Assembly (NCBI RefSeq): GCF_000971135.1
Contig: NZ_BBLW01000004.1
Span: forward strand, 186,001-250,000
Length of the DNA: 64,000 nt
Direction of reading: 5' to 3'
Source of the DNA: Demequina phytophila
Lineage (GTDB): Bacteria > Actinomycetota > Actinomycetes > Actinomycetales > Demequinaceae
The position numbers and the translations under genes were made by a program. Shown here in pieces: positions 35,691 to 37,762 of the stretch. The notes below the pieces were generated by a model that had not been told where the DNA came from, made no database searches, and saw only the letters and a list, made by a program, of their open reading frames with translations. The stretch's first letter is position 1. Every line of letters starts with the position of its first letter.

Positions 35691-35786
35691 CGGCACCCCC
35701 CATTGCCGCCGGATACCGCCATCATGCCTGGTGGATGGGCTCGCGTGAAGTCCTGTGGACAGCGGGCATGCGTGACGGCGCCGTGT

Positions 35787-35801
35787 CACAATGGCCGGGT
35801 G
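35787..35801 (+). promoter_or_regulatory. putative leaderless promoter of the HTH gene
   Basis: CACAAT (35787-35792), six bases, then GTG. No Shine-Dalgarno. Confidence 0.4.
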
Positions 35802-36011
35802 CCTCCGCGGTTCCTCAAGCTCAGCGACGTTCAGGAGATCCTCAACATCTCCTCCCCGCAGGCCTACGCCCTGGTGCGGTCCGGCGACCTGCCCGCGATC
35901 CAGGTGGGCGGACGCGGCCAGTGGCGCGTCGAGGAGGAGCAGCTCGAGGCGTACATCGCGCGCCAGTACGCGCTCGCCAAGGAGCACCTGAAGGAGCGCG
36001 AGACCCGCTGA
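35799..36011 (+). CDS. small helix-turn-helix protein (excisionase/BldC-like)
   Basis: A 70-residue DNA-binding protein with a winged MerR-like helix-turn-helix: FLKLSDVQEILNISSPQAYALVRSGDLPAIQVGG, followed by the wing GRGQWRVEEEQLEAYIARQYA. The layout matches excisionase/AlpA-type and BldC-type proteins of actinobacteria, which can bind direct repeats cooperatively. There is no integrase or phage gene nearby, so a chromosomal regulator is likely. It is divergent from the SAF/CpaE-like pair. Four 10-base-phased repeats 590 bases downstream, before the LysM gene, are a possible target. Confidence 0.85.
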   Translation: MPPRFLKLSDVQEILNISSPQAYALVRSGDLPAIQVGGRGQWRVEEEQLEAYIARQYALAKEHLKERETR

Positions 36012-36017
36012 CCTGCG

Positions 36018-36524
36018 CTAGCGGGCCCGGACCGCGAGCAGCGCGGCCGATGCGATCGCGACCGACCCCGCGTCCGTCACCAGGTCCAGGTGGTCGGCGC
36101 CGACCGCGCCGATGATCCCGCGCCAGCGTCCACCGTCGGTCTCGACGGCCACCGCGAGCCCGGCCTCCGCGAGCTCGCGCAGCGCCGCGGCCACGGTGAG
36201 GCGGAGCCGCACCTCGCCGAGCACCGTCGCGGCGTGTCCCAGTCCGTCGGCGGCCGCCACCGCCGCGAGCGGCACCAACGCCTGACCGTCGCCGACGTCG
36301 AGCAGCACCCAGGAGCCGGCGACGTCCGCCACCGCGCCCCTCACCTCGGAGCCCCCGCGCAGCACCAGGCGCACGGGCCCACCGCGGTGCGCCGCGAGCC
36401 GCCCGGCGAGCGTCACCGCCGCCCGTTCGTCCCGGGTGCGCTCCTCGATCTCGACGTCGAGGTCGACGCGCTCGGCGACCTCGAGCCTCGACTCGAGGTC
36501 GGCGAACAGCAGCTCCCAGCGCAT
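36018..36524 (-). CDS. conserved actinobacterial hypothetical protein
   Basis: A 168-residue protein beginning MRWELLFADLESRLEVAERVDLDVEIEERTRDERA, a start I recall from conserved but unnamed actinobacterial proteins. The body is beta-rich with two SH3/LSm-like stretches (VRLVLRGGSEVRGAVADVAGSWVLLDV and RWRGIIGAVGADHLDLVT, described by position about 52-80 and 135-155). No catalytic residues are recognised. It converges on the HTH gene with six bases between them. Confidence 0.6.
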   Translation of the reverse strand: MRWELLFADLESRLEVAERVDLDVEIEERTRDERAAVTLAGRLAAHRGGPVRLVLRGGSEVRGAVADVAGSWVLLDVGDGQALVPLAAVAAADGLGHAATVLGEVRLRLTVAAALRELAEAGLAVAVETDGGRWRGIIGAVGADHLDLVTDAGSVAIASAALLAVRAR

Positions 36525-36536: not shown

Positions 36537-36600
36537 GCGCCCGCATCCACAGCCCGCCCGCAGCGGTGGACAGATCGGACATCACTGAGTTACACCAGGA

Positions 36601-36640
36601 GATATCAAACTGCATCAAACAACATCTAAGAGGGGCAAAC
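36601..36640 (+). repeat. four 10-base-phased direct repeats upstream of the LysM gene
   Basis: Successive 10-mers gatATCAAAC, tgcATCAAAC, aacATCTAAG, aggGGCAAAC keep the same register right up to the start codon. The region is far more A+T-rich than its surroundings. The last unit contains the Shine-Dalgarno. Confidence 0.55.
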
Positions 36641-36641
36641 C

Positions 36642-37373
36642 ATGAACGTGGTGGGGACGATGCGGCCGTCAGGGGCCGCGGGGACGATGCGGCGGTCGGG
36701 GGCCGCGGCGCGGGCGGCCTGGGCGTCGCTCGCCGCGACGGCGGCGGCACTCGTGACTGCCGGCGCGGCATCCGCCCTGGCCTGGCAGACCCTGCACCGG
36801 GTCGACTGGCGCGTGTGGGCCGCCGCCGACGCCGTGGTGGTGGTCGCGGGAGCCGTGGCCGCGACGGTCGCGGCCCGGTTCCTGGTCGAGGTCGCCGCCG
36901 CCCTCGCGGCGATCGCCCACGGCGCATCGGCGCCGCGCTGGACGGGCCGGTTCGCGCGGGCCACCGCTGCCGCTCTCGCCGCGACGCTGCTCGGTGCCGG
37001 TGCCGCACAGGCCGCGGACCCGCCGCCCTCCGCGGGCTGGCTCCCTGCCCAGGGCGCCTCGACGGCCGTCCCGTGGACCCCGGCGACCGAGGCGCCGAGC
37101 CCCGCGCGCATCGTCCCGACGGCGGCGCCGACGGCGACGGAGCGCCCGGATGCCGGGGCGCCACCCGGCCGTTCCGTGCACGTGGTCGCCGCCGGCGAGT
37201 CGCTGTGGTCCATCACCGCGGACGCGCTGGACACGGACGAGGCCGGCGCGATCGCCGCCGCGTGGCCGGAGCTCTACCGCGCGAACCGTACCGCGATCGG
37301 CGGCGACCCGGACCTCATCCACCCGGGTCAACGGCTCACGGTCCCCGCCGCCCTCGAGGGGGGCGCCCGATGA
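36642..37373 (+). CDS. LysM-domain membrane protein
   Basis: A 243-residue protein. Its N-terminus has two copies of a GTMRxSGAA-like unit encoded by a 27-base tandem repeat. Two or three hydrophobic segments follow (about 22-45, 52-76, 106-124), the last resembling a signal-type helix ending AQAADPPP. A Pro/Ala/Thr linker leads to a C-terminal LysM domain (about 183-238, HVVAAGESLWSITADAL and LIHPGQRLTVP), which binds peptidoglycan glycan. The protein probably sits in the membrane with LysM in the wall. The ATG follows AGAGGGG. It overlaps the Rv3235-like gene as ATGA. Confidence 0.85.
   Translation: MNVVGTMRPSGAAGTMRRSGAAARAAWASLAATAAALVTAGAASALAWQTLHRVDWRVWAAADAVVVVAGAVAATVAARFLVEVAAALAAIAHGASAPRWTGRFARATAAALAATLLGAGAAQAADPPPSAGWLPAQGASTAVPWTPATEAPSPARIVPTAAPTATERPDAGAPPGRSVHVVAAGESLWSITADALDTDEAGAIAAAWPELYRANRTAIGGDPDLIHPGQRLTVPAALEGGAR
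36653..36706 (+). repeat. 27-base tandem repeat carrying the GGGACGATGC motif
   Basis: Two units (36653-36679 and 36680-36706) agree at 25 of 27 bases. Each begins GGGGACGATGCGGC and ends GGGGCCGC. The repeat lies in the first codons of the LysM gene. A similar arrangement occurs between genes at 54628-54662. Confidence 0.8.
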
Positions 37374-37762
37374 GCGCCGAGCCGGCATGGGCGCCTCGAC
37401 CGGCCCGGCGCGACGTCTACGGGAGGCGGCGGCCCACGCTGGGAGACCCCACCCCGCTCGCGTGCACCGTCGCGCTCACCGCGATCGAGGTGGCCCACGG
37501 CGGCGATGGCATCGACACGCTGCTGCGGTGGGTCACGCCGGAGGTCCGCGAGTCCCTGGCGCGGCAGCACTCGATCGCCCGGCGCACCGGGCGGCGGGGA
37601 GGCACGGAGGCGAGCATCCTGCGCGCCCGCGCCTGCCGGGTGTCGCGCGGCGCGGCGGAGATCGCGGCGGTCGCGATGATCGGGACGCGCGCCCATGCCG
37701 TCGCGATCCGCCTCGAGGACCTCGCGGGCCGGTGGGTCATCACCGTGCTCGACATCGGCTGA
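37370..37762 (+). CDS. Rv3235-family protein
   Basis: A 130-residue cytoplasmic protein resembling mycobacterial Rv3235, a family found close to secA in actinobacteria. A disordered Pro/Arg-rich N-terminus leads to an alpha/beta region (LACTVALTAIEVAHGGDGIDTLLRWVTPEV onward, about 28-60) and a beta-hairpin end (HAVAIRLEDLAGRWVITVLDIG). The resemblance of the core to SecA-linked or NTF2-like folds is too weak to assign a function. It is coupled to the LysM gene and ends at a bidirectional terminator shared with secA. Confidence 0.75.
   Translation: MSAEPAWAPRPARRDVYGRRRPTLGDPTPLACTVALTAIEVAHGGDGIDTLLRWVTPEVRESLARQHSIARRTGRRGGTEASILRARACRVSRGAAEIAAVAMIGTRAHAVAIRLEDLAGRWVITVLDIG

Follow-up and report, generated by a model that had tools for sequence, protein, structure and literature searches.

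A 10-bp repeat array at the promoter of a LysM gene and its putative HTH_17 repressor in Demequina and other actinobacterial families

Introduction

A LysM gene of Demequina phytophila is preceded by ATCAAAC-like repeats that recur every ten bases, and the locus raises the question of which protein, if any, reads these repeats, and with what consequence for the genes downstream. An earlier note on the window (the whole stretch of DNA that was analysed, 64,000 nucleotides) drew attention to the repeat letters at 36601-36640, which are indeed present there, and to a 70-residue HTH protein encoded about 590 bases from them, whose gene lies at 35799-36011. We propose, with a probability of roughly three in four and on the basis of sequence comparison, that this HTH protein is a dedicated repressor of the LysM-DUF6459 operon, the binding of the array being included in this estimate.

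Results

The genes of the locus follow in the order ParA/CpaE-like ATPase (reverse strand), SAF-domain CpaB-like protein (reverse), HTH protein (forward), a 168-residue protein (reverse), LysM protein (forward), DUF6459 protein (forward) and a protein that we take, from its sequence, to be SecA (reverse). The conserved chromosomal order (SAF-domain, LysM, DUF6459, secA) speaks against the HTH gene being part of a mobile element; neither an integrase nor an att site was noticed next to it. The LysM protein (36642-37373, forward strand, 243 residues), the product of the proposed target gene, has a C-terminal LysM domain and hydrophobic stretches in its N-terminal half; it scores 19.1 bits with PF01476, under the cut-off of 20.9, and a LysM profile built in the course of the analysis connects it with its relatives. 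The start codon of the DUF6459 gene (37370-37762, forward strand; PF20060, 83.9 bits) overlaps the stop codon of the LysM gene, thus the two genes probably form one operon. Most of the named relatives of the DUF6459 protein belong to Demequina or Demequinaceae, the nearest being that of D. silvatica (98% identical), and no paper on DUF6459, the Rv3235 family or Rv3235c was found in the literature searched. The divergent 168-residue protein, encoded between the HTH gene and the array (36018-36524, reverse strand), shows weak, below-cut-off similarity to the RimP C-terminal domain and DUF2642. It accompanies the gene group as faithfully as the HTH protein does, with homologues in 92 of 92 array-bearing loci, and the array could also act on its promoter.

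Alignment of the LysM promoter regions of 44 Demequina genomes with an iterated weight matrix revealed that the best-aligned block, found in all 44, consists of a promoter followed by ATCAAAC units in an exact 10-bp register. Conservation is strong in TGGACA and, after some 17 bp, in TAYAYC with the phased units, but not in the sequence between. The -35 element TGGACA (36567-36572, forward strand) matches in five or six of its six positions in 40 of the 44 loci with a spacer of 16-18 bp; the spacer to the -10 element is 17 bp in 38 of the 44 loci and 18 bp here. In the -10 element, defined by the profile of the 44 loci (TACACC at 36591-36596, forward strand; TAYAYC in the genus), T occupies position 1 in 95%, and A at position 2, A at position 4 and C at position 6 are found in 100% of the loci. 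The first unit of the array (36594-36600), recognised by its conservation, overlaps this element; it reads ACCAGGA here and ATCTA in most relatives, with A at its position 1 and C at its position 3 invariant in 44/44 genomes. Units 2 and 3 (36604-36610 and 36614-36620, both ATCAAAC) are each kept with at least five of seven letters in 43 of the 44 genomes. Unit 4 (ATCTAAG, 36624-36630) is weaker, being kept to the same extent in 26/44, and begins with A in 40/44. All four units are on the forward strand, and their genus consensus is, in order, ATCTA (inside the -10 element), ATCAAA, ATCAAA and ATCnAA. The base preceding unit 3 is C in 98% of the alignment, and that preceding unit 2 is C or T. 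The weakest arrays among the 44 belong to G019 and G026, and in G044 the array is degraded and the HTH gene is 12.6 kb distant. The assembly of G026 (contig C1) carries the DUF6459-LysM-HTH locus twice (at about 41 kb and 2.67 Mb), which is possibly an assembly duplication.

The conserved array sits one unit upstream of the set given in the earlier note and reaches into the -10 element. The four phased repeats listed there comprised the strong copies at 36604 and 36614 and the weak one at 36624, all of which stand, and missed the copy at 36594; the supposed fourth copy, GGCAAAC (36634-36640, forward strand), falls outside the conserved array and is at background level, as it is kept in 5/44 genomes, with a mean of 2.36 of seven letters vs 2.16-2.50 at control offsets of +5, -30 and +40 and 0.48 at -40. 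Nor does a one-turn register to the start codon hold, since the distance from the unit corresponding to 36604 to the first in-frame start ranges from 25 to 62 bases in the 44 Demequina genomes and is most commonly 35-37. The ribosome-binding site of the LysM gene, judged from its sequence, is GAGGGG (36630-36635, forward strand), six bases before the ATG at 36642, and transcription presumably starts near 36602-36604. From the alignment of the units and their register in Demequina it follows that the array starts inside the -10 element and crosses the expected transcription start into the leader.

The 2.98-Mb genome has a single copy of the pattern ATCAAAC-N3-ATCAAAC, and with up to two mismatches the sole additional match is the overlapping next copy. 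With up to three mismatches the 64-kb window holds two matches vs 0.21 expected, and two were reached in 2 of 100 shuffles; the letters alone are therefore modest evidence, and conservation is the strong part. The three-unit pattern with up to three mismatches was matched in 40 of the 44 Demequina genomes, in 38 of them at the LysM promoter, with seven matches elsewhere (six at three mismatches, one at two), and the backwards control of the pattern gave one match across the same genomes; the remaining six Demequina genomes have weaker forms of the array at the same place. Searching 99 genomes of the order with a looser pattern and one mismatch gave 25 matches in 22 genomes, 21 of them at this site and four elsewhere, while the reversed-pattern control gave none. 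The array is practically private to the LysM promoter. That the likeness of the decamers is due to chance is an idea favoured by the fact that short two-copy families often arise in this way, and by the two shuffles of the window that equalled its loose-match count; it is already contradicted by an array that is kept in 44/44 congeners and lies in the same place in many families, and we give it practically no weight.

The proposed regulator (35799-36011, forward strand, GTG start) belongs to HTH_17 (PF12728, 51.3 bits, cut-off 27) and to the excisionase family (TIGR01764, 31.8 bits, cut-off 28.8). Its AlphaFold2 model (pLDDT 92) has a C-terminal helix at residues 46-69 and, as modelled, the protein would be a single small MerR-like wHTH domain free of any coiled-coil or effector domain, as are the members of the BldC family. 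The best Foldseek matches of the model were Pukovnik Xis (top) and BldC, with probabilities of 1.00 and no E-value below 0.001; a profile of 24 relatives, searched against the PDB, had Pukovnik Xis as its sole match under E 0.001 (E 0.00014). A second structural comparison placed 6hn7_B first (Z 8.4, rmsd 3.4, 12% identity), which we regard as tied with BldC (6amk_B, Z 8.0, rmsd 1.1 over 51 residues), a Z around 8 being not unusual among small domains. The earlier note had taken the protein for a BldC-type regulator; the BldC/Xis-like fold is borne out by prediction, whereas the protein is not BldC, and the pitch and letters of its putative operator differ from those of BldC. The genome has a separate BldC-like gene (G000:C10:392121, about 65 residues in a 67-codon open frame), whose product is 24% identical to the HTH protein. 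In addition, the putative operator has a 10-bp and not a 9-bp pitch, and the base-contacting residues of BldC are absent: Arg30, Lys26 and Trp31, described as contact residues of BldC in PMC5859096, align with Ala24, Pro20 and Leu25 of the HTH protein.

Outside the genus, 88 loci from 17 other families of the order were sampled, each extending upstream of the DUF6459 gene; 60 loci were hand-picked from 198 genomes, the first 20 favouring HTH-poor genomes, and the short loci L099, L109, L112 and L114 were excluded from the pair-distance, three-unit and HTH-status counts. The ATCAAAC models were built from Demequina post hoc and the threshold of 21 was picked once the scores were known, and other distances, the reverse strand and shuffles served as guards against scan bias. 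At distance 10, 44/88 loci have a pair of units with 12 or more of 14 letters on the forward strand and one locus has such a pair on the reverse strand, vs 0-3 loci at the other distances from 7 to 23 (two at distance 9), except distance 20, i.e. two turns, with 15. With 11 of 14 letters the counts are 47/88 at distance 10 and 30 at distance 20 vs 2-13 elsewhere. A three-unit score of at least 21 was reached in 52/88 loci forward, five reverse and 1/88 shuffled.

The array exceeds the threshold in 54 of the 64 loci with a conserved HTH gene, in none of the 13 loci of family f19, where the HTH gene is diverged (12 loci) or was not found (one), and in two of the 11 loci without an HTH gene in the stretch. 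One of the two, G183, stops at a contig edge; the other, G147, has a weak match and no LysM gene. G104, likewise counted as HTH-less in the stretch, has its HTH gene 6.5 kb away. Loss of the repeats from LysM genes that keep the HTH gene, which the earlier note had named as counter-evidence to its proposal, is thus not the pattern seen in 44/44 Demequina loci and 54/64 loci outside the genus. Ten of the 64 loci, including all four HTH loci of family f13, are under the threshold, and in-phase units with changed letters are present in four of the sub-threshold loci (G058, G075, G068 and G172). In family f13 (G058/L113, G075/L132 and G104/L197) the in-phase 10-bp units have other letters, such as CACGAACCGA; the HTH protein of this family has a different recognition helix, and its gene is about 6.5 kb distant in G058 and G104. 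Searches for the LysM gene detected it in 63 of the 64 HTH loci (the exception is G119) as well as in G104 and G183, and not in the other nine HTH-less loci or the 13 f19 loci. In G119 (L205), where the HTH gene and the array are present and the LysM gene was not detected, the array precedes the DUF6459 gene. Within Demequina, reading of the HTH gene covered 37 of the 44 array loci; in the other seven, a search with an out-of-frame query places it upstream. Since the presence of both the LysM gene and the array tracks that of the HTH gene, the three are inherited together. Co-loss alone cannot separate binding of the array by the HTH protein from both belonging to the LysM gene, because outside Demequina the LysM gene is missing in 9/9 truly HTH-less loci.

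At the LysM promoters of G052 (L106), G126 (L185), G107 (L207) and G133 (L209) the array is reversed, and the direction of the LysM gene is unchanged; a fifth reverse-strand array, in G121, lies away from the LysM promoter. The reversed arrays bear on the possibility that the repeats act as leader RNA or merely as bent DNA. Units 3 and 4 lie inside the putative transcribed leader, and phased short A runs can curve DNA. However, reversal would have changed the RNA in four loci and the first unit overlaps the -10 element, while curvature alone leaves the conserved letters ATCAAA unexplained. We consider both forms of this explanation very improbable.

The HTH gene is also widespread beyond the order, being carried (E <=1e-18) by 52 of 98 genomes sampled from the class, a few of which are from the order. 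In loci from families in other orders of the class, CAAAC-type pairs are present at distance 10 in 11/17; they lie 0.8-1.3 kb downstream of the start of the HTH gene, and most have the form AGCAAAC or GGCAAAC. The remaining distances gave none except 16 (one locus) and 20 (three). At 10 of 12 letters, 14/17 loci have a pair at distance 10, vs 0-6 at other distances except for ten at distance 20.

The HTH gene itself is also preceded, at 37-91 bp, by phased pairs with at least 11 of 14 letters in 7 of 63 loci (families f6, f7 and f10), vs 0-3 at other distances and none at distance 10 on the reverse strand; when 12 of 14 letters are required, the count is 2/63 vs 0-1 at other distances. Several of these pairs, as we read them, directly follow a -10-like word and are placed as at the LysM promoter. 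No phased pair precedes the HTH gene in 37 loci (36 of Demequina and G046), therefore autoregulation through such sites is not expected in Demequina.

These sites and the rarity of the array have to be weighed against the possibility that the array is bound by another conserved protein, e.g. canonical BldC or a response regulator, the HTH gene being a mere neighbour. The genome encodes a BldC-like protein at another location, and some response regulators bind direct repeats (PMC5859096). A global regulator should, however, have many sites, while the motif is close to single-copy, and phased pairs precede the HTH gene in three families. As the same source describes, BldC reads AATTXXXX(C) at 9 bp; canonical BldC was judged unlikely as the array binder, and the hypothesis of a different binder as a whole seems to us unlikely. 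The HTH gene is the likely partner of the array because of their co-inheritance, the privacy of the array, the pairs before the HTH gene and the unit letters, which follow the protein.

This last correspondence involves residue 35 of the HTH protein. Where it is Gln, base 2 of the unit is T in 115 of 148 units; where it is Lys, base 2 is T in 22 of 84 units and G in 44 (26 of 118 loci, arrayless in a letter-neutral scan, were omitted from the count). Compared by family groups, 7 Gln vs 14 Lys, the difference has a Mann-Whitney p of 0.0005, the families being not fully independent, and T is not the prevailing base in 13 of the 58 Gln rows. Shared descent may still account for the association, because the tree of the divergent protein gave a single supported independent pair.

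Discussion

Repeats spaced by one turn recall the operators of small recombination directionality factors. Excisionase-type proteins line up cooperatively and head to tail on tandem direct repeats with one-turn spacing, and Apl of phage 186, with direct repeats of 10-11 bp, represses both promoters that it covers (PMC7498355). The HTH protein, like Apl, lambda Xis and Pukovnik Xis, is small and, to judge from the DNA, would be served by an array with one-turn repeats of the excisionase/RDF-operator kind. Unlike Apl and Xis, which function in recombination and are encoded by phages or mobile elements, it has a chromosomal gene that stands in a conserved order, and essentially one promoter site. 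BldC monomers likewise assemble head to tail on direct repeats, at 9 bp and with AATTXXXX(C) (PMC5859096). The predicted wHTH fold is shared with Streptomyces BldC, whereas BldC, with its 9-bp AATTXXXX(C) sites, serves several developmental genes and the present array has a 10-bp pitch, ATCAAAC letters and a near-private location. RdfS of Mesorhizobium forms a head-to-tail filament with about 10 bp of DNA per molecule (PMC11963761). Like the HTH protein it belongs to the HTH 17 group and, unlike it, it has an extra N-terminal helix; it controls the excision and transfer of an integrative element, and PMC11963761 gives no identified consensus motif for it. The predicted fold and the proposed binding mode are thus of a known kind; what is new is the putative 10-bp ATCAAAC operator, its near-single target and the breadth of its conservation. 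No paper on the protein/array pair was found in the literature searched.

We propose that the HTH protein binds the array cooperatively and represses the LysM promoter. One monomer would occupy each 10-bp unit, head to tail and on a single face of the helix, in the manner of Xis/Apl and BldC, and a row of three or four monomers would start in the -10 element and cover the transcription start and the early leader. Because of this position, a filled row should exclude RNA polymerase. The protein would be a repressor with essentially one genomic site and, in some related families, it may also occupy its own promoter.

Alternatively, the HTH protein may bind the array and activate, e.g. by bending the DNA or by holding the polymerase. 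The -10 element TAYAYC departs from the consensus, so the promoter may need help, and MerR-type relatives often are activators. Against activation, the array overlaps the -10 element and the region downstream of it, and proteins bound there usually block transcription. The arrays are, moreover, found in either orientation, and Apl represses from arrays of this type (PMC7498355). Activation appears to us rather unlikely, and we retain repression as the preferred reading.

The co-conservation of the HTH gene and the repeats, together with the near-absence of other sites, supports the private switch suggested by the earlier note. The pair has the look of an old switch, with one regulator for one promoter, that many actinobacterial families have kept. 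We put forward more tentatively, at somewhat less than even odds, that the HTH protein is an ancient, class-wide, one-target factor of the excisionase fold, present in the approximately 20 families sampled, that its residue 35 (Gln or Lys) sets base 2 of the unit (T or G/C) and that either orientation of the array is used. Repression of the LysM promoter would point to a function for a widespread protein that is named only "helix-turn-helix" or "excisionase family" in family libraries. It would also indicate how a conserved operon is controlled, one that includes the DUF6459 protein, for which no function is known. It would be unusual, if the proposal is true, for a regulator to be retained over such distances for what is essentially a single promoter, and the natural variants of the protein and its operator would offer a series for reading how a row of winged-HTH proteins selects DNA.

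Two further observations concern the sequences around both promoters. In many Demequina genomes and in other families, DnaA-box-like words (TNTCCACA and TCCACAG, here at 35754-35762 and approximately 36545-36553) lie upstream of both the HTH and the LysM promoter; nothing is claimed for them as DnaA boxes, the window holding nine one-mismatch boxes vs 9.26 expected. The HTH gene itself looks leaderless (region 35780-35801), its start codon being preceded, at a distance of a few bases, by a CACAAT-like word in most of the Demequina genomes read.
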